From Diphasiastrum complanatum (Eukaryota > Streptophyta > Lycopodiopsida > Lycopodiales > Lycopodiaceae): a DNA stretch of 64,000 nucleotides. Below are positions 23,550-48,744 of the stretch, in pieces. The translations under genes were made by a program, and so were the position numbers. The DNA is taken from the NCBI GenBank assembly GCA_029204225.1, contig MU832006.1:1-64000 (forward strand), written 5' to 3'. The notes beneath the pieces were generated by a model. The model saw nothing but the letters and a program-made list of their open reading frames with translations, did not search any database and was not told where the DNA came from. The number at the start of each line of letters is the position of its first letter. Position 1 is the stretch's first letter.

Positions 23550-24126
23550 AAAGAAATTATTGCAGCAACTCAAGATTTCGAAGAAGAAGGTTCTACTCGT
23601 ATACACAAAGTAGAAGTTTGGAAAAAGTTAGACAACATGGTGAAATACTTGAGAAAAGATAAATTTTCAAATACTGATGTTCAAATGATATAGAAAACAA
23701 CCAATGAATTTGTGAATGCAGTTCAGAGTGCATGGGGTGTTGATTATATAACACATTATATGGTAAGATTTTGATTTTACACTACGATAGACAAATATGT
23801 GCAACTAAATTAGGTACTTTTGGTACCGATTTAGATTATGTTTTTATGACATGCAGCACATATTACGACATCATTTGACATTCTTTGCAAGAAATAGTGG
23901 AAGTCTTAGCATATGGTCATCGCAAGGAATGGAAAAATCTCATTGGCAAACAAGAGCGGCATTTCATAAAAGTACACAACATGACGGGACTAGCAGAAAA
24001 AACAGCTATATACTACAACTTTTCCAATGGTTTTACAAAAGAATCCAAATTCGTCATCATACAAAATCGATGGATTATAAAAAATTTCAAAAAGCATGCA
24101 AATTTATACAAACTAGTAGGCTATAG
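23550..24126 (+). pseudogene. Z gene 3' part (transposase-like protein), element A
   Basis: Exon 1 remnant encodes TRIHKVEVWKKLDNMVKYLR (one TAG near 23,690) and ends FVNAVQSAWGVDYITHYM. A GT..AG intron occupies 23,763-23,856 (GTAAGATTTT...ACATGCAG). The next exon encodes HILRHHLTFFARNSGSLSIW, SSQGMEKSHWQ, STQHDGTSR and LQLFQWFYKRI, ending at 24,126. Element B carries the same exon junction and the same HILR.H..FFA...GSL..WSSQGM.KSHWQ text at 47,206-46,930. Its stop lies 60 bp from the stop of the convergent X gene. The function is inferred only from its mobile-element context; I cannot name a family. Confidence 0.7.
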
Positions 24127-24185
24127 ACACACAATAAAATTTTGTAATTAAATAAAATTATTTACAAAGTAAAATTTAGCAGTAT

Positions 24186-25656
24186 CTAATCTGCTTCCGA
24201 TATTTTTTCCAATAAAAGTTGCAACTTAGATTCATGCAACAATTTTCTTCTTTCATATGGATCCAATAGCTCATAGTTTTCATGCTTACTCAGATCAATG
24301 TAAGCAGCATACACTGCAAAATGAGATGATCTGAGCATGGAATTCACTGGTCCATATCCTAAAATTTTAACCGCAATAGTTTTTTTCACAAAAATTATTT
24401 TATGCACCTTATTAAAATTATGTCCTCCAAGAAAATGAGAGAGTGCCTTGATTGCCATAATCATAGTTTCACCATGTTGATGAAACTTTGAATGGACAAC
24501 ACTTATCTCATTATTCTTGAAGGACTTTAGATAGTGCCCGAGTGCATGATCTCTTGAAAATTCTCCTGTAGAAGATCTATGTCCTCCTCGACGAATTGCG
24601 AAGTCATCAAGGAAAATTGTTTTCTAAAATGATAAAACACAAAGTAAGATCCAGTATATAATCTGACATAACAAATCTACTAGTACTTGATAAGAGAAAA
24701 ACTTACGCATTCGGCTTTGTCTTCTCTGATTACTGTCTCTCCATCAATATTATGTCCACCTTTCGATGTCAATATTGTTGGTGAATAGACAGTTGGCTGT
24801 GGAAAACCAAGTTGACTTTGGATTCTAAAAAACTCCTCCTCAGAAGGTAGATCATCTTCTTTGTTGCGCATTTCCTCCACAGCCATTTTCAAGCAATCTT
24901 TTCCTAAATAAAACTTATCATTAGTACATCGTCAACACCAGGGAGAAGATCATCAGCATCTTCATCAAGCTCTTTGCTCAAAATGAAAAGAGTCTCAGCT
25001 TCAGTGAAGTCAAAAAGATCCGATATATCCGATATTGTCAAAAAGGAATTATTATCTATATTATAAGTAGGCAAAGTGATCAAAGATTTATCAGAAGGAG
25101 AAAGGGTAGTGGGTGTTCTAGGGCCTATAAAATTAGCCCTATTTCGAACATGATCAAAATCAAAACAATCATCTAAATTAACACTCGTATCAATAAAAAA
25201 GGTATCTATATCTACAATCTTTGACTTTTCAGACTTTGTACCACTAGAAGAAGCTGCTTCAAAAGTGGAGGGCACAGAGTCTGAATCGTCAGAAATATTT
25301 AAGAAAAGAAAAAAAACAAAAGCAGACTGAAAATCAACAAATCTACATTTTTTATTATGAATTGGGCACTCATTTACAGACTTGAAATCATTATGTAACT
25401 TGGTAAACATTCTGTCAAGCTTAGCTTTGTAGATATGTTTGTCGAGTGCCACCAGGTCTGAGACCTGAATAACGGAGTACTGAGCAGGGACTTAAATCTG
25501 AGATATATCTCAGAAAATGCCTCCACACCATGGCCCTCAGTTATAGAAGGTAGAATAAAAAGAAAAAGAGAAAAAAGAGATTTAAAATAATCCAACCTAT
25601 CAGTAATACCAAATTCATTAAAAAAAAGAAAGCAAACTAAATTCAAAATTAGACAT
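24186..25656 (-). pseudogene. X gene, conserved protein of unknown function, element A
   Basis: A spliced protein with a clear homologue at 45,350-46,835. The start at 25,656 gives SLLSFF then NEF.ITDRLDYFKSLF, against SLLSKF.EFEHIEHFKSLF in B. A poly-T tract near 25,620 and a spot near 25,470 hold frameshifts. The middle part has LDRMFTKLHNDFKSVNECP and CRFVDFQSAFVFFLFL (B: LDKMYTKIFDQF...CRYLEYQTGFVFFLL), an acidic/Ser linker, then LPTYNIDNNSFLTISDISDL. After a short break comes LPSEEEFFRIQSQLGFPQP. An intron at 24,624-24,706 (GTAAGT...TTTTAG) leads to FAIRRGG, HYLKSFKNNEISVVHSK and IKALSHFLGGHNFNKVHKII...LRSSHFAVYAAYIDLS. No known catalytic motif. Divergent from the H3-like gene. Confidence 0.75.
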
Positions 25657-26236
25657 TTTAAACAAAAAGAACAAAACTGAAGTTTTAGATAACACTCTCA
25701 GGCGCAAAGCCCAGGTTAGACAAGCACATCAAGGCAACGTGTGCTCGAGAGAGATATTGGATGCTGGAGTATCGGATCCAAACGCAAGGACAAAGAGCAG
25801 AAAAGAAAAGAGTTACGAAACATGCTTGAATGCGATACCGGAGGATACAGTATCAGATCCAGGTGCATAATAGTCAACGAGACGTAATGAGGGCAAGCGG
25901 CGCGCTTGAAATCGATAACCGGCAAAGCCATCGTAAATTTGCGTGAAAATCTGAGCCGAAAAAGAACTATTTATATAAAAAAATTTGCACGTGTGGAGGA
26001 GAGACGACGGAACACATGTCGACAGGTGATTGGCCAAAGTAAATGCGCCGTACATTGAATGATTGATCTGACATCTGCCACGTGCGACAATGACACGCAT
26101 CGATATGGGATTTGGGCACGTGTCTCAGCCCACGTGTCCTCATAATTGGGTCATCATTTGTCGATACGGACATTCCACATGGTCTAATCATATGATGACA
26201 CGTGTCTCAGCCGATTTTTCACACATGCAAAAATTT
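25616..26236. repeat. Promoter/start-region direct repeat, copy 1
   Basis: Tandem with copy 2. Shared landmarks in order: AAAGAAAGCAAACT.GATTCAAA, CTCGAGAGAGATATT, GAGTATCGGATCCAA.CGCAAG, GCAAGCGGCGCGCTTGAAAT, CAGGTGATT/CTTGTGATT, AATGATTGATCTGA.ATCTG and CTCATAATTGGGT. Copy 1 is joined to the X gene body and holds the X start at 25,656. Confidence 0.85.
25968..25977 (-). promoter_or_regulatory. TATA box for the X gene
   Basis: TATATAAATA on the minus strand, about 310 bp upstream of the X start. The repeat copy 2 counterpart near 26,535 has decayed to TTTATACATA. Confidence 0.5.
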
Positions 26237-26291
26237 GCAAAAATTTATTAAAAAAAGAAAGCAAACTGGATTCAAACCCCAAGTCCGACAT
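26184..26291 (-). pseudogene. Orphan N-terminus of X created by the tandem duplication
   Basis: The minus-strand ORF from 26,291 begins MSDLGFESSLLSFFNKF, matching the X N-termini of both elements, then continues into promoter sequence of copy 1 (HVSSYD) and stops. It confirms the X start codon but cannot make X. Confidence 0.7.
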
Positions 26292-26812
26292 GCAAGACAA
26301 ATCAACGTGCACTCGAGAGAGATATTTGAAATTGGAGTATCGGATCCAAGCGCAAGAACAACGAGCAAAAAAGAAAAGGGTAGCGAGACGCGCTTGAATG
26401 AAATACTGGACGATGCAGTATTGGATCCAGGCGCATAATAGCCAACATGATGTAATGAGAGCAAGCGGCGCGCTTGAAATCGATACCTGGCAAAGGAATC
26501 GTAAATTTGCGTAAAAATCCGAGCCCAAAAAGACCTATGTATAAAGAAAATTTTGCACATGTGGATGAGAGGCGAAGGAACACGTGTCGACTTGTGATTC
26601 ACCTAATTAAATGCGTCGTACCTAGAATGATTGATCTGATATCTGGCACGTGTCGGAATGACATGCATTGATTAGGGATTCGTGCACGTGTCTCAGCCCA
26701 TGTGGCCTCATAATTGGGTTATCATTGTCAGTACGAACACTCCACGTGGTCTAATCTTCTGACGACATGTGTCTCGGCCATCTTTTCACACGTGCAAAAA
26801 TTTCGTATATAT
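26249..26812. repeat. Promoter/start-region direct repeat, copy 2
   Basis: Second copy of the block, next to the H3-like gene. It preserves an intact first stretch of the X coding region on the minus strand (ATG at 26,291, MSDLGFESSLLSFFNKF), which then runs into the repeat junction. The duplicated unit therefore comprised the promoter, leader and first codons of X. Confidence 0.85.
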
Positions 26813-26815
26813 AAA
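26806..26815 (+). promoter_or_regulatory. TATA box for the H3-like gene
   Basis: TATATATAAA, followed by a leader of about 310 bp to the ATG at 27,125. Confidence 0.6.
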
Positions 26816-26839
26816 TCCTCAGAATTTTCATTTTTTTTC

Positions 26840-27095
26840 GGAAAATTTTCACTTTTAGCTCCCGATATCGCTCTCAAGTGTGCTCTTTCATCATTCAAGA
26901 TTCCGCCCTCTCACAGTGCGCTCGAGTCCGATACCGCCTGTTGTGCAATATCGCTTTCGAACGCCCATCGCTTATTAGCAAATAATCTCTGTAGATCTTG
27001 CGCTCAAAACTGATATTCAGTGCTGATATCGATCTCAAGCGCCCTTTCATTGCAAATTTTTTTGTTTTGATCCACTTTTGTTTTGTTCAAACTTC
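26840..27095 (+). repeat. Leader array of GATATCG..TC(A)AGCGC motifs
   Basis: Diverged copies of a 16-18 bp word are spaced through the H3-gene leader: GATATCGCTCTCAAGTGTGC, CGATACCGCC, ATATCGCTTTCGAACGCCC and GATATCGATCTCAAGCGCCC. The same word occurs in the X leaders on the minus strand (ATCGATTTCAAGCGCGCC) and in element B (ATATCGGTTCTATGCGCGCC, ATATCGCTTCTCTGTGTGCC). Such spaced arrays resemble subterminal or transcript-leader binding sites of transposons. Confidence 0.5.
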
Positions 27096-27124
27096 TTTTT
27101 GTTAATTTTTTTCTTCCGAGGATG

Positions 27125-28240
27125 ATGGCCAGGACCAAATCCACCGCCCTTGCCATCAGCAATGTACAGCCATCTCATTCTCGTGTCCCCCCTAGTACTG
27201 GTCGTAGGCATGGCAGGAAGTAGGTCTGGTTGAGGGAGATAAAAAAACTCCAGAGATCAACTGAATTGTTGATCCTTAGAGCTCCTTTCGACCGATCTAT
27301 ATGGAATGTTACTCTGTCACTTGGTCTGAATGTTTGTTTTGTCGTGATAGCCATGCAGGCCTTGCAGGGTGCTGTAGAAGATTTTTTGTCCCAATTTTTT
27401 GAGGATACTTGTCTTTTGGCAGTGCATGGTAAGCGTGTCACCATTATGCTAAAGGATTTTGTCATTCTCAAAAGGCTTCCGGACAGATATTCTGGTCTGC
27501 ATGTTGATAATGCCAACACCTCCAAATACCTGCCTCTAGATAGAACCGACGTGCCTACTACCTCTAGGAGGAAGAAAAAGCAGGCTGTCCCAAAGAAGGC
27601 TAGATCTCGAAGGCCAGCCGCTTCCCTTCCTCCTAGACGTATCCCAGCCAAAAGACCCCGTGTTTTCCTGAGCTCTGAGCCAGATGCTGGAGAATCAGAC
27701 GTAGATTGAAAATCTTGTCCTAGTCCTCCTCATGTTATTTGTCCAGCTCCTCAGCAGGTTTCATCACCAAAAGTGTTGATTACCCAAGAGGAGCTAGACA
27801 AAATAATAGAGAAATTTGTAAATATTGTTTTCACTTCTCTTTCTGCTCTTGTACAGGAGAATTCCATATGATCCAGCCCAGGTTTTTTTTATTCTGAACA
27901 TTATAATCAATATGAGGCCTACCTAGCTAACAAAATTGATCTTCTCGGCAATTTTTTTGATTTTTTTCTTCCAGATACACGTAGAAGCTTTAGATTAGGT
28001 CCCAAATTTTGTGTTGAGCTAAAAGAAAAGACCTCAAAAATTTCAGATGCAATAGTAGAGGCCGGAGTTTTTTTTTTGTAGAATAGTATATGTTTCGATT
28101 CCCATGGTACAGTTTTTGTAGTTAGTCCATTTTTCATGGGAGCGGTAAAGGCGAAAAAAGCCAATTTTGAGAAGGCTGTCTATTTTATCGAGTGTAGTCC
28201 TTTGGCAAAATTTTATTTGATTCCATATGAAAATAAGTAA
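27125..28240 (+). pseudogene. Histone H3-like protein with a long C-terminal extension (nonsense-mutated)
   Basis: One uninterrupted frame of 371 codons with four nonsense codons and no frameshift: TAG 27,221, TGA 27,707, TGA 27,869 and TAG 28,079. Residues 1-8 are MARTKSTA, as in H3. The tail is about 13 residues shorter than in canonical H3 and lacks the usual K9/K14/K27 contexts. The fold region reads LREIKKLQRSTELLI, then ALQGAVEDFLSQFFEDT and HGKRVTIMLKD, matching the H3 alphaN, alpha2 and alpha3 helices. Loop 1 keeps canonical length, so it lacks the CENH3-type insertion. Beyond the fold come basic NLS-like runs (SRRKKK, AKRPR) and a domain of about 180 residues I do not recognise. The stop overlaps a donor-like GTAAGA (28,237), so a further exon (perhaps the Ulp1-like part) may have been joined. 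Confidence 0.8.
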
Positions 28241-28499
28241 GAATTGCTCGTTTGTTTTTGTTGTTTTAATTTGGATTGTTGCATGTCTGATTGCTTTAAT
28301 AAGAACAGAACTTTTTCATAAATATGAATTTAACGATATTTGTATCTTGGTTGTTGTAGTTGGCATTAGAGCCTACATATTTTTTTTGTAAAGATAAATA
28401 AGGAGGGAGTATCAAATTTTCTATGTGTAAAATTAAACTAAGATGCAAATACACATAGAGAATTTGATTCTCTATTTCATGATGCCGTTCGGAAAATAC

Positions 28500-29274
28500 T
28501 GTAGTGCAAGCATCCCAAAGGGAGCAGGGAACCACGACTTAGCTTTCCAGCCTTCAACTCTTGCCATCCAAACCCACTTGACATACAAGCAACCAACTCG
28601 CCAACAACGATCAGAATTAACCAACTTGAAGTTCCGGAAACCAACATTGAGATCCAACCTGGCGCCATGCCCGATCGGGGGTCCCGATGTGGGTGACTTC
28701 CCTCCAAGCAAGTCGCCCGACATATATCAATCTTAACCAACTCGAAGCTTCGTTACAAACGAGTAACATCCATTCCAAGCAGGCGGTCTGACTTACATCA
28801 TACTTAACCAACTGAAAGCTTCGTCACGAGCGCTGGAAGCCAACTTGGCGCCACGCCAGACTGGACAGCCATAAACAGGTAACTTCCACCCAAGCAAGCC
28901 ATCCAACTCAGCCGACAGGTTAGAGCCCGTTTCCCAAGAGCTTAACCCATTCACGTTCATGCAAGAAACACTCAGAACCACAAGCCGTAACAAATATGGA
29001 GACAACCAATTCCTGGACCAAATAGTCCCGACAGCATACCGCTGGCACCACGGACCGAATGGTCCTGAAGGCATACCGCTGGCGTCTCGGGATACGACCC
29101 TCAGCTATGTGCCAACTTAAAAATTTTGAAGCGGCCTTACAACTGGCGCTTTTACCGAACACTGAAACCTAGAAGGTAATCAGAGTCAGTTTGAGAAAAA
29201 TCCCACTTTATTGATAAATCTAAGAAGGTTACATTTCAAGTGTGTGACCGACCCTAGTCTCCGGGGCGCTAGCA
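28500..29274 (-). repeat. 3' LTR of the LARD-like element
   Basis: Starts TGTAGTGCAAGCATCCC and ends CGGGGCGCTAGCA. It is the same length as the right LTR and visibly similar throughout, with scattered differences. Confidence 0.85.
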
Positions 29275-29664
29275 TGCCAAGCTCTTTGTTTGGGAAAAGC
29301 GTAGATCTTATATCGCTTTCGTAAAACCCAAGAACCTTATTAATTGGTGACAGAGGCCTTTCTTTGAAATGTTCGCCCCTGTCGCTTCTGAATTTCGACT
29401 TTGGAACTCCTTTGAGCTCCTGATTTGTCCTTGATGCACTTTGTGTTGAGTTCCCTGAGCTCCAGATTTGATCAGTTCTGCACGGGTATCAAGGTTCCCT
29501 GAGCCAAAGGATTTATCGTTTGATTGCCCACTTTATGGTCCACTCCGTGCCTTGTTGCTTCTGCACCTTGATTTCTCTCCTTTGTCCCAGCCTGATCTTG
29601 ATACATTTTCTTCTTGGCTCTTTAAGGTAGGCAAAGATTGAGTACTCCACAATGCACCTCTCAC

Positions 29665-30030
29665 TTAGCTTGAAGTAGCTCTTTGAATCAGCCCAAATGT
29701 AACCATTGACCTCGTGGAAAGCCAAAGGGTCGCACCAGTTTGATCCGCATACGAACTATCTCTTCGCGTTTGTTTGAAGCACCATGTCCGTCGCGCAAAA
29801 CTTGACTTTCACAATTCTATCACTGGTCAGTTGCCTCACAGTCAAAACAAGAAGTGTACATCGAGCTTGACTTCAAGTAGCTCTCTTTGATTCAGACCCA
29901 GAGTTTGCACTAGTCCGATCTCAACGCGAACTGAACCTTAGCGTCCGTTCGAAATACCAAGTCTCTCATGCAAGATTCAACTTTCACAGTTCCTTCATTG
30001 ATCAGCTGCCTTACACGTAACACAAGCCAG
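29665..30030. repeat. Internal tandem duplication in the LARD-like element
   Basis: Two diverged units of about 190 bp begin with CTTGAAGTAGCTCT / CTTCAAGTAGCTCT and share TTGACTTTCACA / TTCAACTTTCACA and CAGTTGCCTCACA / CAGCTGCCTTACA. Confidence 0.6.
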
Positions 30031-30552
30031 CGCACTCATATGTTTCCTCATCATTGCTGGTCCAGAGAAAGCCTATAACAAGCCTTCCTTTCCACAACAA
30101 AAACTTGTCAACTTATTAGGTCCAAAGTTCGCCAGTCTCCTCATGTGAGTATGGCTAGATCACCTTGAATTTGCCCCCATTTTGATCAACTTTCATTCAA
30201 AATTTGCCCCAAGAGAGAGGTGTGTGTGATAGTTCCCCTCCACTTATAAAATCAGCTGATCGGACTTACAGTAGAGTTCTTCGGTCAAAAAGCCTTTCCA
30301 ACACTTTGCTTCCCATCTGTTAGGATTATGGCTCGATCCAACTTGTTGCCAATCTCTGAAGAGGACCCTAGTCTTTCCCCTTTGGGAAAAACCCAACTGA
30401 TACTGGATATCACCCATGCTCAGTGAGTTTCAGCTCCGAAGGTGGCCGTCCCAAAATGAAGACCAACTACTCCATAAAAGATCTCCCCTGAAATTGCCCT
30501 TTCCAATTTTTGACTTCCTGCTTGCGTCTGGTGGGCGTTGTCGCAAATTAAA

Positions 30553-30714
30553 CTAACCCAAGAAACAGGCTAGCCATCCATCCTTTGCAAACATTGAGTC
30601 GTTTCGTTGCCGTTCACGTGCAAGTACTTGAACTGCAAATCCGCCCCACAGATTCTGTAGTCCTCTTTGTTTGATGGTATCAGCCTTCAAAAGAAAGGTT
30701 CCTTCTCGAGCCAT
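30553..30714 (-). CDS. Short ORF of unknown function in the LARD-like element
   Basis: A 53-codon frame from ATG 30,714 (MAREGTFLLKADTIKQRGL) to a stop at 30,553. It lies where gag would begin. It resembles nothing I know and may be chance. Confidence 0.2.
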   Translation of the reverse strand: MAREGTFLLKADTIKQRGLQNLWGGFAVQVLARERQRNDSMFAKDGWLACFLG

Positions 30715-30845
30715 CAGCTCCTTGTATCACAAGCAATCATGCAAACCAGGCAAAGCACGAGTACTAAGACTCACCACGAATACATACAAGTAAGGCACTC
30801 AGGCAAGTTTACTAACAAGTAACAAAGACAAGGTCCCCCTTTGAG

Positions 30846-31385
30846 ATGGTCCTGCCAACGGACCTTTGCCTGGCTGCGCCCATACAAATCGATCACAAAA
30901 TCAGCCCACATAGGACACCTCTCCAACTATCCATGCTTTCACCATTAAGCAGCACATTGCCTCAGTCACGCCCCACCACTTTTTGGTCGATAACCCTTAT
31001 AGCTAAACGATCGGCAGCTATCCCGCACCGACAGCTAACCACCCGTGCTACACCCGAATTCGAGCAGCATCTCTGTATCAATGGTTAGCCCGTATAGTTC
31101 GAATATGTCGCCCTGCACCCCACAAGGTACAGACCGTGCTTTCACCTACCTAGACAGCACTTTGCCTCATCCGTCCTACGTGCAGACAGTGCCAGGCCCG
31201 AACCGCGAGAACTGACCGTGCTTACACCTCAAGGGCAGCACCTTGACTCATCAAGTCCCCCGTTCTGTCGACCACCCCGACCGTGGAGGCACCCGTGCTT
31301 ACACTATGGGCAGCACCTTGCACAACAGTTGTCTTGATGAATCCCAAACAGTGGCCATTTCCGTGAGATCCGCATAGCTGACCGG
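30846..31385 (-). repeat. Gypsy leader segment, inverted copy of 61,046-61,545
   Basis: Plus-strand text such as GACCGTGCTTTCACCTACC, ATTCGAGCAGCATCTCTGTA and TTTTGGTCGATA is the reverse complement of sequence around 61,280, 61,345 and 61,435. Both segments lie between an LTR and the coding region. Confidence 0.85.
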
Positions 31386-31391
31386 CCAGTC

Positions 31392-31404
31392 GGCTCTGAT
31401 ACCA
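31392..31404 (-). other. Primer-binding site of the LARD-like element
   Basis: TGGTATCAGAGCC on the minus strand, two bases from the LTR end. It sets the element's orientation. Confidence 0.8.
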
Positions 31405-31406
31405 CA

Positions 31407-32181
31407 TGTAGCGCAGGCATCCCAAAGAGAAACGGGAACTACAACTTAGCTTCCCAGCCTTCAACTCTTGCCATCCAAACCCACTTGACATACAAGCAGC
31501 CAACTCGCCAACAACGATCAGACTTAACCAACTTGAAGTTCCGAAAACCAACATTGAGATCCAATATGGCACCATGCCCGATCGGGGGTCCTGATGTGGG
31601 TGACTTCCCTCCACACAAGCCGCCCGACATACATCAAACTTAACCAACTCGAAGCTTTGTTACAAACAAGTAACATCCATTCCAAGCAAGCGGTCTGACT
31701 TACATCATACTTAACCAACTGAAAGCTTCGTCACGAGCGTTGGAAGCCAACCTGGCGCCACGCCAGATTGGATAGTCATAAACAGGTAACTTCCACCCAA
31801 GCAAGCCATCCAACTCAGCCGACAAGTTAGAGCCCATTTCCAAAGAGCTTAACCCATTCACGTTCATGCAAGGAACACTCAAAACCACAAGTCGCGACAG
31901 ATATGGAGACAACCAGTTCCTGGACCAAATGGTCCCGACAGCATACCACTAGCGTCATGGACCAGATGGTCCTGACGGCATACCACTGGCATCCCGGGAT
32001 ACGACCCTCAACTATGTGCCAACTTAAAAATTTTGAAGCGGCCTTACAACTGGCGCTTTTACCGAACACTGAAACCCAAAAGGTAATCAGAGTCAGTTTG
32101 AGGAAAATCCCATTTTATTGATAAATATGAGAAGGTTATATTTCAAGTGTGTGACCGACCCTAGTCTCCGGGGCGCTAGCA
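31407..32181 (-). repeat. 5' LTR of the LARD-like element
   Basis: 775 bp, TGTAGCGCAGG...GCTAGCA. Pairs with 28,500-29,274. Confidence 0.85.
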
Positions 32182-32186
32182 TGCCA

Positions 32187-32612
32187 AGGCGAGAGCCATG
32201 ACAACATTCTAGCAAGGGAGGCTGAGACTTGGTTGGAGCTCGTCCTAAGTCGCAACCCGCACTCCCCTACAGTATTGGTGGGATTCGACACCCCGCCTCA
32301 TACCAAGCACTCTACCCAGGCTGGTAAAGCACTTTTTTCTCTCTCTAGAATTTTCTCTCTCTAGAAAGTTATTTTCTCTCTCTAGATCTTATTGATAACC
32401 AGGCTTCCTTCAATCATGCCTAGATCGTGTGAGGTGATTGCACATCGATCTGAGCTCTCTGGACTTCGCTAGAACCGATCAAAGATTTTCAGCCATAGAT
32501 TCTGGTCACAGTGGTGCCGGGAGCGGCGCCGGTGCCGTTGGCGCCGGGAGCAGTAGGGGCGCTGCTGGCACCGGGGACAATGTTGGCGCCAGTGGCGCCG
32601 AAGTAAAGCTTG
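32187..32612 (+). pseudogene. Copia leader and Gly/Ala-rich gag N-terminus, fused to the Ulp1-like exon
   Basis: TCTCTCTAGA-type repeats (32,338-32,386) and a frame with GHSGAGSGAGAVGAGSS and NVGASGA match the leader and gag start at 7980-8230. The frame continues without a stop into the protease-like exon at about 32,613, so Copia sequence is now fused to element A sequence. No gag core is present. Confidence 0.5.
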
Positions 32613-33355
32613 TAAAGGTAGCTTTACAAAAAATACCGACAACGGCAACTTCAATTGGAGATATAACCATTAAATCTCTCAAGGTATATTGAATTTATCT
32701 CTGATATGCACGTATTCCTTTTTTAATTCAAATGTATCGTCATAGCATAAATTAAATTTTGACCATAATATTACTAATTTTCATTCTATATATGCAGTGT
32801 GTACAGCAAAATGATGCTTTTAGTTGTGCATGGTTCGTCCTGTACAATACGAAGCTATTTTTTGAATGGTATAATTTACAAATGGATGTAGATATTGAAA
32901 AGGTAAAATTCTTTTCATTGTAGTTCATTTCATTCTGATTCATATTTTACTACTATCATTGATTGCAATTTGCTGATTCTTGTATTTTGTGATGACAGTT
33001 CACTCTTGAGCTGTATACTCCTGATAATGTATATAGATTTCGGCAAGAGTTGATCAAAACCTTTGCCCAATATAGTGTAAGCATTGCACCTGCAATTGAG
33101 GGCCCTCAAAAGGAAGTTGCTCCTGCCTTAACAGCCTTTCAGGTTGTTCAGGATGCAGATCTTATATTATATGATCAAAAAAGAATAAAAGTCCTTCCTA
33201 ATACAAAGGAAGGCAATTTTGTAGCAGATATTCCTCTTGCCTTAAAAGGCATTGAGGCCCTTCCTGAAACAGAGGAGGGCGAGATTATAGAAAGAGCTGT
33301 TGCTTTATCAGTTCCTAATACTAATATAGAAAATATAGAAAAATTGATAAAATAG
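32613..33355 (+). pseudogene. Ulp1/C48-like cysteine protease C-terminal exons, element A
   Basis: Three exons with phase-0 GT..AG introns at 32,684-32,797 and 32,903-32,998. Exon 2 encodes CVQQNDAFSCAWFVLYN and FFEWYNLQMDVDIEK. The Gln followed by a Cys and FVL fits the oxyanion Gln and nucleophile Cys region of Ulp1/SENP (C48) proteases, which cleave SUMO-like modifiers. Exon 3 starts FTLELYTPDNVYRFRQELI, then has imperfect repeats containing LPNTKEG and LPETEEG, and stops at 33,355. The His and Asp of the triad would lie upstream and are missing, so it is a 3' remnant. Element B holds the same exons at 44,690-44,335. It is probably the tail of the H3-like gene. Confidence 0.6.
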
Positions 33356-33589
33356 AGATCTATTTGTAAATAGATAGACATAAACAAAAAATACAATCAT
33401 TTTACTTGTAAACAACCCGTTTATGGATTTTTTTTATTGATATCATAATAGATTCTTACAATCAGCTTGTGTCCATAGTCTAATAATGGAATGCAATTTT
33501 TCTAGAATGATAAAAAGACATTGGCATGTATTTGTTGATAGTGAATCTCAATGTTTTTCCATAAGTTGGATTGTTTCGCCAATATTTCT

Positions 33590-33930
33590 TCATTTGATCT
33601 CGAGCTCATGTCTTTTACATACCTGCATAAAACTAATACAAAGTTAGTTGAATTAGTACAGAGTTTGTATTAGAAAGTTTTAATTGAAACTATTCATAAA
33701 AGATCGAGCGTTTACAATTACTTACGAGTTTACCATTGAAAATGAATCTGAAGTCTAAAAGTACATCATCTTGTAGGAGCAATAGTTCCCGCCGGATGTA
33801 GTTTAGACTCCAATCTTCTTCTACCTCAACACATGTCAAAACGACATCATTGTAAGTAATTTCAATATTTTTTCATTTTGAATGTCCACTGGTTTCCAAG
33901 TCTTGATCGAGTTGCACCCATTTACCTTTA
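33590..33930 (-). pseudogene. C-terminal domain of the fourth gene, element A
   Basis: The minus strand encodes QLDQDLE, then LTCVEVEEDWSLNYIRREL and FRFIFNGKLV, directly followed by a donor GTAAGT (33,725-33,720) and a probable next exon after ...TTATGCAG (near 33,628). Element B has LPLDQDLQMDGH, VEDNWSLSYIRQELV and FIIINGKLV-like text at 43,771-43,975. The strand-helix pattern recalls ubiquitin-like (beta-grasp) modules, but that is only an impression. Confidence 0.5.
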
Positions 33931-33969
33931 TTTTTTTTCCATCTTTGATAATGGAAGCATAAGCTCAAC

Positions 33970-34865
33970 ATTTATTTTTCAATTTGATAATGGAAGCACA
34001 TGGAAGACATTTTAATTCTGCATTCTATTTCTCCATCTGATTTTTTGTCCCAGCCTTCATCCATAAGTTCAGATAATAAACTATCTGATAAATTTTTGCA
34101 TACAAACATCGTTGGGGTTTTGTGTACATTGACACTTGAAAAGAAATCCACAAATATATTCAAGGAAATAAACAAACTCAATCTGACTGTTTTTTATCCC
34201 GTGCTCATTTTTAATGAATTTTTTACATCATTATATATCCCCCACTTTCAAAACTAGGTAATGGAATTGGTACTATTTGTCCAAATTTTTCGTTTGTATC
34301 AGGAATATACATTGATTCATAAAAAAAGATTCCACTATCAGCTAGATCTTTGGTAGTTCTACCTCGATATTGCAACTGTCCAATATCAGTGTGAATAACA
34401 TCTAACACACCTGCTAAAGATCCACTCGGCTCCCATTCATTTATGTTGGATGGATATAAATATGCAAGAGAAAAATGATTAGATTGGCAAGTTTACTATT
34501 AGATATTTATGAATGACAAAAATCAAAGTATCAAAAATATCAATACTCACAGTTGTTTTTTTTGTGATCCTGACGGTTGAATCCTTGCACATTTATCTCT
34601 GAATGCATATATACATGTTGGACTAGAATTTCAGAAATAGATTTTCCTCTGATGATGTTCTGAAATCCAAAATTTTGGCCTTCCAATAAGATCGAAATGA
34701 TAATTTTGACATTTTCCTTTTTCGAAATGCTCCTCTTGATGATGGATGCATCAAAACCCAAGAGTTTTTTGAATATTTTCTTGGCACCCATAATCCATTA
34801 TCATCTATCTCGTTGAATAGAAGCACAGAGTCGATTGAGGAGCATGGCTCCCTTGATGGCGCCAT
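33970..34865 (-). pseudogene. Fourth gene N-terminal part, shares its N-terminus with Z, element A
   Basis: Start ATG at 34,865 (MAPSREPCSSIDSVL...NGLWVPRKY), paralogous to the Z start in element B (MALRRPRSTIDSVI...NWIPKKY). Later text ISEILVQHVYMHSEINVQ precedes an intron at 34,462-34,550 (GTGAGT; the acceptor AG is now AT). The next exon has LYPSNINEWEP, LDVIHTDI and KDLADSGIFFYES, then SLFISLNIFVDFFSSVNVHK. Each block has a close match in B. Frameshifts and stops are frequent. It is convergent with the Ulp1-like exons. Confidence 0.65.
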
Positions 34866-35030: not shown

Positions 35031-35512
35031 ACAATGCATATACATTAATGGTACATCGATTTTCTCATCTCAACCATCTGTCATATTCATTTTTTATATC
35101 TTTGAGTCTCTTCGGGCAGTGATGAGCTAGAAGGACAGGCCTCATCAACCAATAGCATTTCCACATGCTACCCGATGAAACAACAATATATTTAAAAAGT
35201 TTTTATTTTATTTATATTTGAAAAATTCTACGTTACGTAGAACCCTGAAGCTAAGGTTTCAATTGGTCCACATGGCAACGAAAATAAGAAAAAAAAATAA
35301 AAAAAAACATCTTTTTCAAAGGCCCTCGTCGGGCTCTAAGTTTCTCTAATGTAGAAACCTCAAAAACATTAGAAGCCATGAAAAAAATGATTAGTACTTT
35401 CAACATAAGGATGATTGAAGTACTCTCTTTTTTCAAACAAGAACTTCTACTCAATGTTTTAGATATTGACTCATATGGTAATGATTCTTCCTCATTATCA
35501 TTCACAATGATA
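35031..35512. other. No gene recognised
   Basis: Spacer between element A and a minus-strand Copia element. It contains GGCCCTCGTCGGGCTC followed by TTTCTCTAATG (35,322-35,352), resembling GGGCCCTCTTTGGGCCC and TTTCTCTAATG at 38,714-38,743. Confidence 0.4.
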
Positions 35513-37905: not shown

Positions 37906-37917
37906 ATATACTACTTT

Positions 37918-38020
37918 CACCATTGATTGGGGGACGTACGCGTATACGCGAATGCCCCTTGGTCTTTGTAATGCACCTGCTACATTCCAATGTATGATGA
38001 CAAATATTTTTCAAATTGCC
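37918..38020 (+). pseudogene. Gypsy reverse transcriptase fragment
   Basis: Encodes IDWGTYAYTRMPLGLCNAPA followed by TFQCMM and IFQIAK, the RT block normally reading WG.YAY.RMPFGL.NAPATFQ. About 33 residues only. Confidence 0.75.
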
Positions 38021-38371
38021 AAAATAATTTAATAAAAATTCGCGAGCTCTAGATCTTCCAATGCTCGGCTTGCATGGAATATTTCCTATTTTACCTGATA
38101 ACTTGTCATTTTTTTTTATTTTAACGTGGCCTTTATGTAAGCCTACTTTGGACAACACATCCTCTAATCTGGAAATAGCTTCCTTTGCAGCCTCTGGCTC
38201 GGAATCCCATGCAAACAAGATGTGAAGATATATTATTTTTTCTATAATACGCACCTCCACATGCAATGTACAAATATGATCATTTCGTAGAGGAATCGGT
38301 AGTACAGGTTTCCAATTAGGATTTTCTCGATCTCTTGATGAGCGGAGCATATTCTGGTGACAGATCCACAT
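38000..38371 (-). pseudogene. Z gene internal fragment (third copy)
   Basis: The minus strand encodes RENPNWKPVLPIPLRND, CTLHVEVRIIEKIIYLHILF and AISRLEDVLSKVGLHKG. Its start matches RENANLNWKHVLLITL at the equivalent place in Z of element B (about 47,280), but this fragment is better preserved and extends further. It shows what Z encodes beyond the HPCLYC motif. Flanked by Gypsy RT on the left; not attached to other element genes. Confidence 0.5.
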
Positions 38372-39081
38372 GAAGATGATAAAGCTTTGTCATCAGTACA
38401 ATAGTATAGTAACAAACAACACAATGACAATAACAAAGCTGGAGATGGCGCTAACGACTCTGCTGGAGATAGACATGGCGTAGGCTTTTCTCAGAAATGT
38501 CACTCCTAATTCAAATTTTTGAGTGTTCCCAACTATTAGGAGGGTTGAAAATTATATTTTAACTATGGTTAAACACCGGTGAAGTTTGATGTGACTAAAC
38601 TAAGGTGCATTCATTTACATGGAAAGTAGTGCGGGCAGATGCGTAAAGAATTTAGAAAATGATATTATAATTACTTTATAGTTATTTTTCTCTCTCCTAC
38701 ATGGCATTTCTTATAGGGCCCTCTTTGGGCCCATATTTTCTCTAATGCTTCTTATGATGCAATCATTAAGAGGGAGTCTTATGAAGGAAAGAGAAATGGA
38801 AGATTGGTTATTGGGACGATCCAAGGCATGGATCTCACATCTCTTCATCAACTCAAATGATTCTATGATTATGAATTGATCACTCATAATCGAGATGGCA
38901 AAAGGTTGGTTGGAGAAGACTACATGGAGCAAATCGAGAGGTAATTTCTTCAAGGCAAGGGAAATCTCATTGGTGAGCTTATTGAGGTTTGTTATGGACT
39001 CAAGAGGGCTGGATTTATTAGGTTTGATACTCATCTTCACCTACTCTACTTCATGTTGGATGAAAAGTTTGAATCTATCTT
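38372..39081. other. No gene recognised
   Basis: Spacer; holds a GGGCCCTCTTTGGGCCC palindrome-like word (38,718-38,733). A minus-strand frame at 38,477 starts like a signal peptide but stops after 27 codons. Confidence 0.4.
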
Positions 39082-40193: not shown

Positions 40194-40638
40194 AGTTGAA
40201 GAGGGAGTGTGAGAAATTTCAACAAGTTTAGTCATATTTTGGTAAATTGTCAATTGAGGCCAAAACTCATTTTAGAATTAGAGATAAGCTTTTTGAAGTT
40301 ATATTAGTTTAAATACATTCAATAAACACTTTTTGAAAGTGTGGGAAAGTTGGTAGTCGAGTTTGAGAGAGATTCAAATGTGAACTTTGGGTACATTGAA
40401 TCTAGACCCAAAAATAGTAGGATTTACATTTTGGAGAGAAAGCCAAGTGGCGAAATGGGGTTTGGACCTAGTATATATTGTTGTAACTCATGGAGAAAGG
40501 GATCTTCTCTCTTCTCTCTCTCATTCATCGTTATACATGGTTCTCTTTGGGTTCTACTACTCATTGGTGCACTCTCAATTGTTCATAGGTTCTTGAAAAT
40601 TTTTATTCATTGCACAAGGACTAAGAGAAGGTTTCACA
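40194..40638 (+). repeat. Polypurine tract and 3' LTR of the Copia derivative
   Basis: GAAGAGGGAG (40,198-40,207), then TGTGAGAAATTTCAAC...GGTTTCACA (about 40,208-40,638). Inverted TGTGA/TCACA ends. Homologous to 4394-4923 but without the long CT run. Confidence 0.7.
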
Positions 40639-42287: not shown

Positions 42288-43717
42288 CTATCGAAGTTTG
42301 CTTGTGACTGCTCCATGAACATATAAGTTGAGGAAGAATGTAAATCCAGAAGTAGATTTACGAGTGTCTACATCTCCTACCCAACTTCCATCTAAGTAAC
42401 CATTGAGAATATTGAGATTGTCATTGTTGGCTCCTCCATAACAAATGCAAAAGTCCATAGTAACTCGAAGATATCTCATGACTCTGATAAAAGCCTTCCA
42501 ATGTGTTATACCAAGATTGGTCATATACTGACTTTAGGAACTGATTGCAAAAGCTATGTCTGGTCTGGTAGAGATCATCGATTACATAAGGGATCCTATT
42601 ATTGATTGATAAGGATACTCACACATCTGCTCCTCTTTGATTGTTTGGGGACACTGGTCCTTCAACTTAGTCTTTGATTATATCTGATTAAGACATTGTG
42701 AATGTATCTTTGCTGAGAAATATAGATTTTTTCATCTTGAAACAAATAGTTGTTCTTCTTGAATATTCGTCAGTAAAGGTAATAAAATACTTTGCATCTA
42801 GCAATGACAGAGTTTGCATTGGACCACATATATCTAAATAAACAACGTCTATCTTTTGCTACATGCCTATGACTTGATCTAAATGGAATCCTAGTCTGCT
42901 TTCCAAAAATGCAACTATGATAGACAGGGAGGTTGACTTTGTCAGATGGATAGTCGAGATCAAGTGCTAGGGATCATTTAGACATGTATGAAACAAATGT
43001 ATGATTCAAGTGTCCTAATCGATGATGCCATAGTAATGCTTTATTGACAAGAATAGAAGTTTTCAAGGCTTGACTATTATCAAAATAGCAGTGTGCCAAT
43101 CTATATAAGTTTCCATGCCTCTTGCCGACGAGTGCAAGGATCTTACTTGTCCTATCGATAATTTGGCATTGCTCAGACTCGAACTCTACTTTATGACCTA
43201 AATTAGTGATTCTACTTACTGATAGCATATTTGTAGAAATTTTAGGGACATACGAAACATTTGATAGTAGTTTGAATTGATCATGGTAGAATTTCAATGT
43301 TATAGTGCCTTCACCTTCGATATTGTGAGTGCTAATATCGTCGCCAAGATGAGCGTACTTCTTTGTACTGTAAGGCGTATAGGAGTGAAAATGTTCACGA
43401 TGACTAGTCATATGTTGAGTAGCTCCAGAATCCAAAAACCAAGAATTATCCAATAGTGCTTTTCAGTCTTTGACCATAAATGCTCCTTCGTCCATGTCGA
43501 TGTCGGGAGGTGCTATGACTACATTTGCCTGTTGATCAGGTTGCTTGCTGGCATTCTTTGCTTTGAGAAACCTACAATTCTGGATGTCATGATTAGTGCG
43601 CCTGAAACACTTATGGACTATTTTTTTTTTTTTCGATGGGAATGCAAGATAGTTCGAGATATTGAATGTAGAATTAAGAAATCTTCTATGATATTTTGTT
43701 ATTGCATTCCGAGACAA
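42288..43717 (-). pseudogene. Copia element core with internal deletion
   Basis: In minus-strand order: a zinc-knuckle-like CFRRTNHDIQNCRFLKAKN (third Cys of the consensus replaced), protease WFLDSGATQHMTSHREHF, pre-integrase region LSNVSYVPKISTNMLSV and LLWHHRLGHLNH, a short integrase piece (LDAKYFITFTDEYSR, about 42,800), then a jump to the RT/RNase H end (MRYLRVTMDFCICYGG, GDVDTRKSTSGFTFFLN). Most of integrase and RT is deleted. Its 5' side (43,717) abuts element B. Confidence 0.85.
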
Positions 43718-43770
43718 ATGCTTAGCTTACATTCAGCTACCAGAGATGGAAACAAATAAGTGGGACTTGG

Positions 43771-44150
43771 ATGCCACTAGATCAAGACCTTCAAATGGAT
43801 GGTCACACAGATCGAAAAGAAGTCCACATTTTCAACAATGAAGATATGCTAACTACGATTGAAGTGGAGGATAATTGGAGCTTAAGTTATATTAGACAAG
43901 AGCTGGTCTTAATGCACTATGAAATTCTACCTGAACACTTCATATTCATTATCAATGGAAAGCTCGTAACATTTTCTTGTGATTTGCAAACTAGCCAATC
44001 ATTATATATGTAAATCTACTCAAAGAATAACCAAATTAACAAGTTGCTTATCTTTCATGCAGATACAAAAAAGACAAGAAAATACAACACTCTGCAAGGA
44101 TCTTCCAACATATATCAACATTGTAGAAGAACAATGACAAGTCATACAAT
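43771..44150 (+). pseudogene. C-terminal domain of the fourth gene, element B
   Basis: LPLDQDLQMDGHTDRKEVHI, then TTIEVEDNWSLSYIRQELV and INGKLV match 33,930-33,726 of element A. The donor after INGKLV has decayed from GTAAGT to GTAACA (43,968). A probable next exon starts after ATGCAG at about 44,060 and ends at a TGA near 44,136. The N-terminal part has been removed by the Copia insertion. Confidence 0.55.
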
Positions 44151-44334: not shown

Positions 44335-44690
44335 CCTCATTTAGAATCTGAACATCATCTGGCTTAGATGGCCCAGCAGCAGTCTTTGGTCCAACAGTTG
44401 ACTTGGCCAATAGACTAAAGATGAGCTCTTGTCGAAACCTGTACACTTCACCAGCTGTATAATCACGGAGGAAAAAGTACAATAAACAATATATTAGATG
44501 AATATTTATAATAAACGATATATTACATAAAGATTAAAGAGAAAGAAAACTAAATAGCTCACCGTCAAAATATCAACATCCTCTTGAAGAATGTACCACT
44601 CAAAAAATAAGTTGGCATTGTAAAGAGTACACCATGCACAGCTAAATGAGTAGTTTTGTTGGGTGTCTGCAGTACATTCAACTAATTAAT
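44335..44690 (-). pseudogene. Ulp1-like C-terminal exons, element B
   Basis: After an acceptor TGTACTGCAG the minus strand encodes QQNYSFSCAWCTLYNANLFF and EWYILQEDVDILT, then a GTGAGC donor. The next exon has YTAGEVYRFRQELIFSLLA and soon stops (about 44,335). Same Gln...Cys arrangement and intron placement as 32,798-33,355. The acceptor AG of the second intron has decayed, and the repeated C-terminal tail of A is missing. No H3-like sequence lies between these exons and the promoter, so the 5' part has been deleted. Confidence 0.55.
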
Positions 44691-45349
44691 AACGCAGAAA
44701 AGCGATATGTGATGAAAATTCGAGGAAAAAAAAAGTGAAAATGACCTCCATGTTCGTGACCTTGTGCCCTCAAATTTTCGCACGTGTGGTCACACTTGCG
44801 AGTTTCGTACAACCCAGTCAACGATTGCCACTTGGCATTCACACGTGGGTATCTAGAAGCCCAATGAGACCTCGACATGTGCCATGTATGGCCCAATCAA
44901 TTCTTGACACCTGGCGACTGGACGACTTCGCTCGTGTGGTTGTTCATTGCCAATTGGAGGATGACATGTGGACAATTGACCGTTTGACTCACACGTGTGA
45001 AACAACTATAAAGGGCACAGTTCCCAATTTTTTTTTTCAAATCTTTCTTTCTCAATTTTCGGTCATATCGGTTCTATGCGCGCCTGACTTGTAGTTCTAT
45101 GAACTAGAACATGACACGCGCACAAGAGCGATATCTAACCCCTCAGTCCGTAAGAGGATTTTCACTTTTTTTTTCTTAGAATTTTTGTCACATATCGCTT
45201 CTCTGTGTGCCCCGTTTGCTCCCTCATTGTCTTGTCTCTCTGTGTGCACACAAGAGTGATACTATGACCGTACATATTGCTTCTGTGCATGCATAGTGTA
45301 CTCCTTTTTTATGGATAGTCCCCTCTCGCACAAAACCAATACTAGGCAA
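44691..45349. promoter_or_regulatory. Divergent promoter of element B
   Basis: Contains GCACGTGTGG (44,780), ACACGTGGG (44,842), ACATGTG motifs and ACACGTGTGA (44,991), as in element A. TATAAA at 45,007-45,012 faces X. The X leader has ATATCGGTTCTATGCGCGCC and ATATCGCTTCTCTGTGTGCC. The minus-strand side has CATATCGCTTTTCTGCG (near 44,700). Confidence 0.6.
45007..45012 (+). promoter_or_regulatory. TATA box of X in element B
   Basis: CTATAAAGGG lies 340 bp before the proposed ATG, a spacing close to element A. Confidence 0.5.
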
Positions 45350-46835
45350 TGGCTTCCTCGTCTGATCCTAGTCGGGAGTCCTTGTTGTCCAAATTTCACT
45401 GAGTTTGAGCACATAGAGCACTTTAAGTCCCTCTTCCAGCCTTTCTTACATGTGTTCAGTGTAGCACAACAGAGTCCAGATGTTTTTATGACTAGTATGT
45501 CAAATTTAGGGATATAAGCAGTACTAATCTCATTGGATAATTTGTCATTTATGCATTTCACTGACCTTGTACATAGTTTTCTACATTATAAGCAGTGGCT
45601 AGACAAGATGTACACTAAAATTTTTGACCAATTTAGGAATTCCAGTGAATGTAATTTTTGTAAATGAAAATGTCGTTATCTCGAGTATCAAACCGGATTT
45701 GTGTTTTTCCTATTAGTACAGATCCCAGAAGAGTCAAATACATCGATTTCTGAAACTATGATCCCTTCATCCTCCACTACATTCCATCAAGGATATCAGT
45801 CATTTCTTGGTGGATACTCCTGATAAAGACACTGACTATGTGAGTGTAGATACTAATAAGTTGAGAGATGCTTTCATTGGCTCTAATGCCAATATTGTAA
45901 TTGCTAATGTACATTCTAAATGCTTTTTGATTTGCCAAAATATTATATTAACGAAGATGTGTATATCACAACTGCAGATCTATGTGTTTTTTTTTATTAT
46001 CGGGAGGATGAGGTGCTTTGTCTATCGTCAAGCACCATTTTTGAGGTCTTTAACATTGTTGATTTTGAAACCGAAGACTTGGTGTCGGGCATTGAGTATG
46101 GTGATGAAGAAGGCATTCTAACTAGTGAGGAATGTTTGTCCTTGTCTTTGGCAAATGTTCGTGATCATGGATGAGGTTTTCCATCTGAAGAGAAATTTAT
46201 TTCCTTCCAAGCCCAGCTGGGATTCCCTCATCCATCGGTTATGAAATTTACAGATGACTCTTCCTCAATAGGTGGTCACAATATAGATCATCTCGATCTA
46301 GTTGCAGCAAATGATGATGAATGCCTAAGTTTAGTAATTTTACTATAAGTTTATCAGATGTATGTGTTTTATTAGATTTTATCAACTAAGAACTCCAATT
46401 TTGTTATGCTAAATACACTTGTGATCAATGAATTTGCTACTCGTCGAGGGGACTTCAGACAACATTCATCATCTTTCCACAGGGATAGAGGTCTCGACCA
46501 CTACTTGAGGCACTTTCAGAAAAATGAAATTTGTGTTGCTCATTCCAAACTCAGTCCAGTTGGCCGTGAAAGCCTTATCTTATTATCTATGTGGACATAA
46601 ATTTGCTAAAGCAAATGAAATAATTTTTGTGAAGAGATCGTATGTTTTGAACATATTAGGATTTGTAGATGGGAATGTACCATTAAGGAGTTCCCATTAT
46701 TCATTGTATGTAACATATATAGAATTGAGTGGCAACAAGGACAATGCGCATCTTCTGGATGCTTATGCAAGTAGAGAGGTATTACATGATAGCACAACAA
46801 CTGGACAAGATGAAATATCAGATCCCACTGAATGA
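45350..46835 (+). pseudogene. X gene, element B
   Basis: Starts MASSSDPSRESLLSKF, then a frameshift to EFEHIEHFKSLFQPFL. It goes on (with stops and shifts) to WLDKMYTKIFDQF, CRYLEYQTGFVFFLL, DLPKYYINEDVYITTADL, GFPSEEKFISFQAQLGFPHP, an intron whose donor has decayed to CTAAGT (about 46,335), FATRRGD...HYLRHFQKNEICVAHSK and, after a shift near 46,560, VKALSYYLCGHKFAKANEII and PLRSSHYSLYVTYIELS. Every block aligns with 25,656-24,186. Conservation at protein level despite DNA divergence suggests past selection on this protein. It stops at 46,835, facing the Z gene. Confidence 0.75.
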
Positions 46836-46855
46836 AACTTTGTATATATTGAATA

Positions 46856-48744
46856 TTAAGAATACAATTTACATTTGTAGCATCTTTGTAGCTCTAAATT
46901 TTTAGCATCTTTGTTGCTCAATGAATTTGCAAGCTTTTCTAAATTTGTTGTAATTTGAAGATTTGGTGATTTGCTTGCCAATGTGACTTCTTCATCCCTT
47001 GTGATGACCAGACACATAGGCTTCCATATGTATTTGCAAAAAATGATGTATGATCTCTTAGTATGTGCTACACATGTCAAAATTGTAATGTCAGTCTTAC
47101 GCTTGGATCAAAATATATAGTTGAATTGAAAGCTGCTCTGAGCATGCATACTAACCATGTAATGAGTGGTGTGATCTTTACCCCATGCTTTTGATACTAC
47201 ATCAACAAAATCGACACAAGTACAAGGTAATAAGCAATACATGCTTCCAGTTTAAATTTGCATTTTCTCTAGTAATTCTTGTACTTCTAGTTACATCTTT
47301 TTCCATTTTCATGCAGTATAAACAAGGATGTTTAGACGTAGCACCGTGAGAGACATTATACATGCATTTCAATGTTTTCAAATGACCTGCTAAGTGCCAT
47401 TCAACATTGAAGTCTCCAACTCTTGGAACATTGAGAAATCCTCTGTTCATATGGTCCTTGATGATCTTAGGGTAAGATGTGCTAGAGAATATCCATGATA
47501 ATATATCATAATTCTCCTTCAGTGCCTGTCCAAAGAATAAAACCAACTTAGTGAAATAAGAATTCTCACTATCCATTGAATCTAATCTAAGAATGAGAAA
47601 AATTACTTAAAAAGCTGCCAACCACCATATATTATTTTCGGACTGGACACTGAATCTGAAGTCTCCTTGGTCCACTATTTGTGATAGTGCACCATTCATG
47701 AGAGTTATACTAACTCTCTCCATCTTCTGCCCTTTCACAGTCTCTGACTCATCTAACTTAAGTACTATAAGATTTTTACCATTCACCTTTTCAAAGGTTA
47801 TATCATAAAATGTGACCATGTATGTTAGCAAGTGATTTAGATCAACAAAGAAGTTGTTTGATGAATATAAAATTTTGATCTTCCATCTTTGACAATGTAT
47901 TATCTAACAGATCCTTACAGACAAATAATGTCAGTGTTCTATGCACATTTGGAATCGAAAAAAAATCAACAAATATATTCAAAGAAATAAACCAACTTAA
48001 TTGGACATTTTTGGACCCAGTACTTATTTTCATAGAGTTCTTCACATCAGTAAAGAGCTTGCATTGAAATGATTCTGAAACAATCTTGTCAGGAGTAATC
48101 CATTCTTCACTATCCAAGCTTGGAAGTGGAAGGGCCTCACGGTTTCCAAATCTTCCATGCGTATCTAGAGATTCATAAAAATAGATTCCACTGTCGGCAA
48201 GTTCTTTTGAAGATCGGCCTTTGTACTACAATTTTCTTATATCTGAATGTATGACATCCAATATACCTACAAGTGATTTTTTGGGCTCCCATTCCTTTAT
48301 ATTTGATGGATATAAATCTGCATGATAAAATAGATATGAGTTTCCAAATAGATATCCAAATTCAATATGCTAAATAAAAGTAAGTGCATAAAAAAATAGA
48401 GTTGAATTTATTTGCATAAAAATAAAACCACAATGATTCAGATACTTACAATTGCATTTTTTATGATCATTTGGATTGACGGATTGAATACTCAACTCGG
48501 AATGCATATAAACATGTTGAACTAACACCTCTGAAATGGATTGTCTACCTGGCAATGCTCTAAAGTCAAGATTTGAAACATAACTTGGATCGTTTTCTCT
48601 TTCTAAATGCTCCTAAATTTGATGATGGATGCATTAATATCATGTGTTTTTGACGTATTTTTTTGGTATCCAATTTCCTGCTTCGTCTTTCTCAATGTGA
48701 AGAATGACAGAATCTATTGTGGATCTCGGTCTCCTTAATGCCAT
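46856..48744 (-). pseudogene. Z gene (transposase-like), element B, nearly full span
   Basis: Start ATG 48,744 (MALRRPRSTIDSVILHIEKD, NWIPKKY). Then SISEVLVQHVYMHSELSIQ, an intron 48,318-48,449 (GTAAGT...ATGCAG), LYPSNIKEWEP, LADSGIYFYES, SWFISLNIFVDFFSIPNVH, VSITLMNGALSQIVDQGDF, a cysteine-bearing block (RVGDFNVEWHLAGHLKTLK, GATSKHPCLYCMKMEKD), VDFVDVVSKAWGKDHTTHYM, an intron 47,068-47,155 and HILRDHTSFFANTYGSL, WSSQGMKKSHWQ. Many stops and shifts. The CxxC-type pair and C-terminal GSL..WSSQGM motif recall transposon-encoded proteins, but I cannot assign a superfamily or catalytic residues. Confidence 0.65.

Follow-up and report, generated by a model that had tools for sequence, protein, structure and literature searches.

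RAG1 is believed to derive from transposons of the Transib type, which are known mainly from animals. Transib and RAG-type elements produce a 5-bp target site duplication (TSD) and have ends like CACAATG or CACAGTG, and some plant CACTA/EnSpm elements carry C48/Ulp1 domains. For the wider CACTA-Mirage-Chapaev-Transib (CMCT) elements, PMC12730594 gives 5'-CA..TG-3' termini in most cases and TSDs of 2-5 bp. Here we describe a DNA element present as two decayed copies, A and B, in a 64,000-nucleotide stretch of the Diphasiastrum complanatum genome (assembly GCA_029204225.1, contig MU832006.1, positions 1 to 64,000; hereafter the window). Its units are a predicted transposase gene (Z), a gene X, a third gene that starts as histone H3 and may continue as an Ulp1-like protease (H3-Ulp1), and a fourth gene.

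The element resembles the CMCT clade in having C(2)C after the second of two D residues, with a candidate H(3-4)H and last E following in the same order, in its 5'-CA..TG-3' termini (CATTAG...CTAATG) and in its RNase H-like predicted fold, but differs by the lack of any TSD seen, by the lack of a PF02992 (Transposase_21) match, and by H3-Ulp1, X and the fourth gene. Transib, ProtoRAG and RAG1 showed 12-16% identity in the rows compared; the element ends in CATTAG, and both the 5-bp TSD and the heptamer-like ends are absent from it. With plant CACTA/EnSpm it shares a plant host and, by motifs, the clade, but CACTA ends and a 3-bp TSD are lacking, as is Transposase_21 in Z and nine relatives. 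Spy, of the PHIS superfamily, likewise has no TSD (PMC4482050), but it is of the Harbinger kind and inserts within AAATTT, a motif absent at the element junctions read. A fungal hAT transposon also carries H3 sequence; according to the abstract of PMC6710886, this is a host H3 copy inactivated by repeat-induced point mutation, whereas the H3 described here is diverged, long kept and placed beside a possible protease. Fungal DNA transposons encoding TET/JBP (PMC12730594) carry an accessory that possibly counters silencing, as we tentatively suggest for this element, but theirs is a TET dioxygenase and ours a histone with a possible SUMO protease. With its many copies in a plant, a transposase predicted to share the RAG1 fold, other ends and no TSD, such an element would widen both the hosts and the chemistry of this enzyme group.

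Fixed ends, dispersed copies and insertion sites

The genome searched comprised 1.74 Gb in 5,176 contigs, with the window on contig C488. Exact 21-mers from the left and right ends occurred 796 and 626 times; reversed controls gave 0. DNA of copy A (23,600-24,600) matched 40 places at 91-100% identity, the best 40 of 3,300 candidates, and for B-type Z DNA the best 40 of 3,916 candidate places were retrieved. A common start was found in seven of eight left ends inspected, four reading CATTAGAGAAAATATGGGCCC and three (C4, C5 and C892) having one change; C11 differed. The right end, ...CTCTAAGTTTCTCTAATG, was reached by four copies (C4, C11, C14 and C19), two of which (C14 and C19) deviate slightly from it, and a B-family copy ended in ...CTCCTCTAATG. 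Left and right ends agreed at 25 of 32 positions as terminal inverted repeats (TIRs), and the three fetched copies with both ends were 8.7-10.2 kb long.

The initial annotation had proposed a large gene-carrying DNA element, to be doubted if genomic copies showed the units shuffled or always apart. To read unit order, ten 18-kb regions containing A-family copies were retrieved; in all ten the units present ran from Z through X, H3 and Ulp1 to the fourth gene, which favours an element. Every unit was kept in four regions (C3, C4, C14 and C19); the copies in C6 and C8 break off within Ulp1, H3 and most or all of Ulp1 are gone from those in C5, C892 and C11, and C10 retains Z and X only. Flanks were unlike among these copies except between C5 and C892, which appear to be a single site in two haplotypes; C5/C892 and C488/C12 are haplotype-like pairs and are not independent. 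In a B-family copy, B16, the two halves of the fourth gene are adjacent, and in a third subfamily X is divergent from H3, as in A. The element is thus a family with fixed ends bearing TIRs, hundreds of dispersed copies, a fixed gene order and an H3 domain, and at least three subfamilies are present in the genome. The proposal of a large, many-copied element is borne out.

Collecting copies for termini and target duplications, as the same annotation had advised, yielded the TIR ends but no TSD. Eight copies were paired by hand (correct orientation, ends at most 15 kb apart, listed places from C1 to early C3). None of the eight had a TSD of at least 3 bp, one showing a 2-bp and two a 1-bp match; none had a 6-bp TSD of the Polinton type, and none had AAA/TTT at the junction. 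The three fetched copies with both ends had no TSD either, C4 having a 2-bp match and C14 lying inside a CT repeat. Empty sites were then compared with filled ones. At site 1, one ungapped 165-bp match ran across the junction. At site 2, 36 of 38 junction-spanning rows were equal in length and the two best rows were 2 bp shorter. Site 3 was ambiguous: of 37 rows, 9 had equal length and 28 carried 1-4 extra bases next to an AT run. The lists for sites 2 and 3 are the best 40 of 1,510 and of 3,299 candidates; the copy's own flanks (two rows at site 2, three at site 3) and 52 weaker rows at site 3 were omitted from the counts. Taken at their simplest, these data mean that nothing but the element is added at insertion, without a TSD, in the copies examined. 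The left flanks showed a weak bias (C at -4 in 9 of 15, A or T at -3 in 13 of 15), and no strict target motif was found in 15 left and 13 right flanks.

Some further candidates were rejected. For pair 52/53 a partial match, interrupted by two gaps, extended only 9 bp beyond the junction; the partial match of pair 51/50 stopped at the junction, and a 99% left end (C22, L045) was a short remnant.

The predicted transposase and selection on the four genes

Pfam and PDB sequence searches gave no usable match for Z, X or the fourth gene; rows with E above about 0.01, coiled-coil ones among them, were treated as chance matches. The initial annotation could match the element to no named superfamily. 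At the sequence level this stands, the Z read having no Pfam transposase match and PF02992 not being among the matches at E 5 for Z or its nine relatives, but the predicted fold, motifs and termini do point to CMCT. Our RAG1 reading started from a by-eye resemblance of Z to what we take to be the RAG1 residues, and it was retained only once the fold had been compared. Z is predicted to be a transposase with an RNase H-like DDE/D core and a RAG1/Transib-type fold. We know of no solved CACTA structure, and such a fold thus does not separate Transib from CACTA. In the alignment, the C(2)C after the second D was present as C528 in 25 of 26 rows and C531 in 24 of 25, reading PCLYC in the Z copies. 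The H(3-4)H and last E read HILKVH and GMERSH in P0001 and P0002-type rows; the A and B copies of Z read HILRHH or HILRNH with GMEKSH or GMEKLH. By predicted fold, motifs and termini, Z seems to be a divergent CMCT/RAG1-fold lineage.

Several observations weigh against this identification. Z had no RAG1 or Transib match at E 10 against PDB chains, and none was listed by Pfam. The fold was modelled for P0001, a relative with 44% identity across the region searched, rather than for Z itself; the model had a pLDDT of 73.1 and a pTM of 0.59, and the helix carrying the final Glu fell below pLDDT 50. At the first His of H(3-4)H, 2 of 20 aligned rows had H and the other 18 had V, and the last Glu was covered by three rows only; we put the V down to gene predictions reading into the intron at that place. 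We consider it highly probable that the element is a large cut-and-paste DNA transposon of a vascular plant with a transposase of RAG1-fold identity.

Pieces of the Z family were also seen in four annotated proteins of the fern Adiantum nelumboides (P0039, P0027, P0053 and P0054), some of them chimaeric with other sequence.

All four genes are conserved between families. By Nei-Gojobori counts, the ratio of nonsynonymous to synonymous substitution (dN/dS) for Z between the A and B families was 0.11-0.16 in the 4 of 6 comparisons that gave a value; between subfamilies, H3 had 0.15-0.27 (8 of 11). X gave 0.25-0.31 between families (2 of 2), and the fourth gene 0.16-0.17 (two comparisons; three short pieces gave no value). 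Within families, Z, H3 and X gave 0.31-1.60. The Z pair L039/L036 (0.96 over 32 codons), a comparison of short pieces, was excluded from the range. These figures suggest purifying selection while the element was active, followed by decay. Weakening that interpretation, dS between families was saturated (1.3-3.1), so that the ratios are not exact values, and three H3, two Z and one fourth-gene comparison gave no value.

The H3 domain, a possible protease and rival explanations

The H3 domain of the C19 copy matched PF00125 at E 3e-19 (69.9 bits against a curated cut-off of 26.4), and the nearest solved chains to the element H3 were histone H3, the best being 8pep_E (E 7.6e-17). The A-family tail opens with the MARTK of H3, though it is shorter, and inspection by eye shows no K9 or K27 context. 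H3 occurred in the A family, the B family and the third subfamily, and P0053, a fern protein (Adiantum nelumboides), combines it with a piece of Z.

The H3 part of C19 and of C4 leads, through frameshifts specific to each copy, into a region where His-Trp, Asp, Gln and Cys follow one another as in C48 peptidases. By reading, CATTGG (HW) is in frame with LFVKIN in C3, C6, C14 and C19, followed by FDSL or FDFL and by QQNDAFSCAW or QQDDAFSCAW; C4 has a 1-bp difference at this place, and C3 has R for S beside the Cys. This region is read, weakly, as a possible Ulp1/C48-like SUMO protease, and H3 and Ulp1 as a candidate single protein. Both proposals have evidence against them. Pfam Peptidase_C48 stayed below its cut-off of 20.7 bits in the single-copy C19 reads (14.8 and 15.6) and in a mixed read (16.6), and the C19 matches (E 0.026 and 0.014) compare with E 0.008 and 0.019 for an unrelated family. 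The full Ulp1 read had no match in Pfam or PDB, the single protein has to be read across those frameshifts, and a protein homologue search with residues 95-500 of the H3-Ulp1 read at E 1 returned no relative of the fusion. In the open-licence literature searched we found no transposon with a histone and Ulp1, and no precedent for the H3-Ulp1 part or for a CMCT element without a TSD.

A mechanism can be sketched on this basis. Z, as a DDE enzyme, would pair the CATTAG ends, excise the element and join it to directly opposed target bonds with zero stagger, hence the lack of a TSD; we think this step fairly likely. It is doubtful, though conceivable, that the H3-Ulp1 product acts on chromatin, countering silencing or opening the target. 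Its H3 fold would put it into or beside nucleosomes, and its C48-like domain would remove SUMO from proteins of silencing or repair; its A-family tail lacks, by eye, the contexts of K9 and K27, at which methylation silences transposons. A similarly tentative suggestion is that X and the fourth protein are partners, perhaps in end binding or target choice. The fullest proposal is a RAG1-fold lineage of ferns and allies with blunt integration and a long-kept H3 variant joined to a SUMO protease, which would install a silencing-proof nucleosome, or tether a deSUMOylase, on the chromatin of the element or of its target; no earlier transposon is known to encode a histone that serves it as a functional component. 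We regard this proposal as more apt to fail than to hold. Because the single-copy Ulp1 reads score below the mixed read, we lowered our expectation both of a role for H3-Ulp1 and of the silencing-proof reading. With a gene in which selection has kept an H3 next to a possible SUMO protease, a selfish element would have a direct way to act on silencing nucleosomes or SUMO marks, and the idea of action on silencing chromatin is testable with single domains.

Two authors of the report on Lanisha, a CMCT lineage, reportedly work on a moss, and an early land-plant lineage would fit. Membership of the element in Lanisha (Repbase Reports 2020; Maumus, McDaniel, Carey), in which case the transposase lineage is already named, is a serious possibility, although we do not expect it. 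In section 3.1.6 of PMC12730594, Lanisha, compared here by CMCT placement and description only, stands alongside EnSpm, Transib and RAG1 among the lineages having C(2)C and H(3-4)H motifs, but the same text gives TSDs of 2-5 bp for these lineages and none was seen here. The H3 and Ulp1 parts might instead be host genes captured by transduplication and carried as neutral cargo, since a fungal hAT element captured and amplified histone H3 (PMC6710886). This we find quite improbable for an H3 that is common to three diverged subfamilies, accompanies a Z piece in the fern protein, holds a fixed place in the gene order and has the low between-family ratios given above.

The window is full of nested retrotransposons, A itself being split by one and cut beside another, and one might suppose that Z, X, H3-Ulp1 and the fourth gene are separate transposons nested by chance. 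One order in ten of ten A-family regions with differing flanks, the adjacent fourth-gene halves in B16 and the X-H3 divergence in the third subfamily leave this practically no credence. Large size, several genes and a possible C48 protease would suit an endogenised large DNA virus or a Polinton/Maverick-like element, and Polintons also carry a protease. A Z profile scan of IMG/VR viral contigs nevertheless found no relative, and the Pfam matches of the five unit reads included no polymerase, capsid or integrase. With transposon ends, a Z relative predicted to have a RAG1/Transib-like fold and no 6-bp TSD, such an origin is very improbable, and the virus-like remains suggested by the initial annotation are not supported. 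Excised elements captured at double-strand breaks, rather than inserted bluntly by a DDE enzyme, would also be free of TSDs and of a strict target motif. Such capture usually loses or adds bases, however, while two empty sites showed no net change, and the weak left-flank bias is explicable by an enzyme; we hold it unlikely and retain blunt insertion by Z.

The window copies and other repeats

The features of the window copies are collected in Table 1. The homology between A (23.5-35.0 kb) and B (43.7-48.7 kb) claimed at the outset was recovered for the units by six-frame protein comparison, except for H3, which is absent from B. Both copies are decayed, as seen in the stop in the H3 of A and the His at the second Asp place in the Z of B. 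A lacks its left 1.5-2.6 kb, being cut at 23,549 next to a Gypsy element, and is split by the large retrotransposon derivative (LARD). The inverted left end further right has its inner edge 28 bp from the base that matches 23,549 in other copies; given this small gap, it may be A's own displaced left end.

Table 1. Parts of the element and inserted sequence in the window (LTR, long terminal repeat).
Feature	Position	Strand	Remarks
A, Z gene, last exons of transposase	23549..24126	+	intron 23,763-23,856; holds GSLSIWSSQGMEKSHW with the presumed last catalytic Glu
A, X gene (no recognised fold)	24189..25491	-	convergent with Z, divergent from H3-Ulp1
A, region between X and H3-Ulp1	25705..26803	.	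diverged tandem duplication, spacing 568, 82%
A, histone H3 domain	27125..27595	+	H3-like start MARTK; one in-frame stop; PF00125 E 1.6e-17 on 27224-27709
A, linker and first part of Ulp1-like (C48) region	27596..28499	+	
Later LTR/LARD insertion in Ulp1-like part	28500..32630	+	AATAC at both sides; foreign to the element
A, remaining Ulp1-like region and C-terminus	32640..33356	+	QQNDAFSCAW motif
A, fourth gene (no recognised fold)	33693..34850	-	
A, right TIR	35320..35351	.	ends ...GGGCTCTAAGTTTCTCTAATG at 35,351
A-family copy, left end and middle Z exon, internally deleted	38016..38747	-	CATTAGAG... from 38,747 inward
B, C-terminal half of fourth gene (inverted interior)	43637..44010	+	
B, Ulp1-like remnant (H3 lost)	44341..44692	-	
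B, X gene remnant	45668..46835	+	
B, Z middle and C-terminal parts	46942..47887	-	His in place of second catalytic Asp
B, N-terminal half of fourth gene	47888..48744	-	junction 47,887/47,888

The two copies had been taken for simple inverted copies; B is internally rearranged instead. Window positions 43,637 and 47,882 sit 8 bp apart in B16, from which we conclude that the interior of B is flipped relative to its own right side. The N-terminus of Z, expected near 43.6 kb under a simple inversion of B, was not found there. Among 40 scored places, the junction 47,887/47,888 was spanned only by the window and the near-identical C12 haplotype.

A stretch of C12 (58006250-58010250) is near-identical to window 22100-32750 but without 25,536-32,182, that is, most of the middle of A including H3 and the LARD; this is a structural difference between apparent haplotypes. 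Within the fetched regions, positions 15738-17437 of the C4 copy and 14056-14232 of the C11 copy represent a third and maybe a fourth subfamily with a diverged H3, beside which X lies in C4.

Other repeats were noted in the window. Positions 103-1257 and 39073-40153, like 4266-4810 and 40164-40643, are similar at the protein level and belong to another repeat family. The similar pair 9958-11614 and 52199-54196 has raised GC and strong GC skew and is possibly a second repeat family. A tandem repeat with 196 bp spacing, 94-95% alike, lies at 49876-50332.
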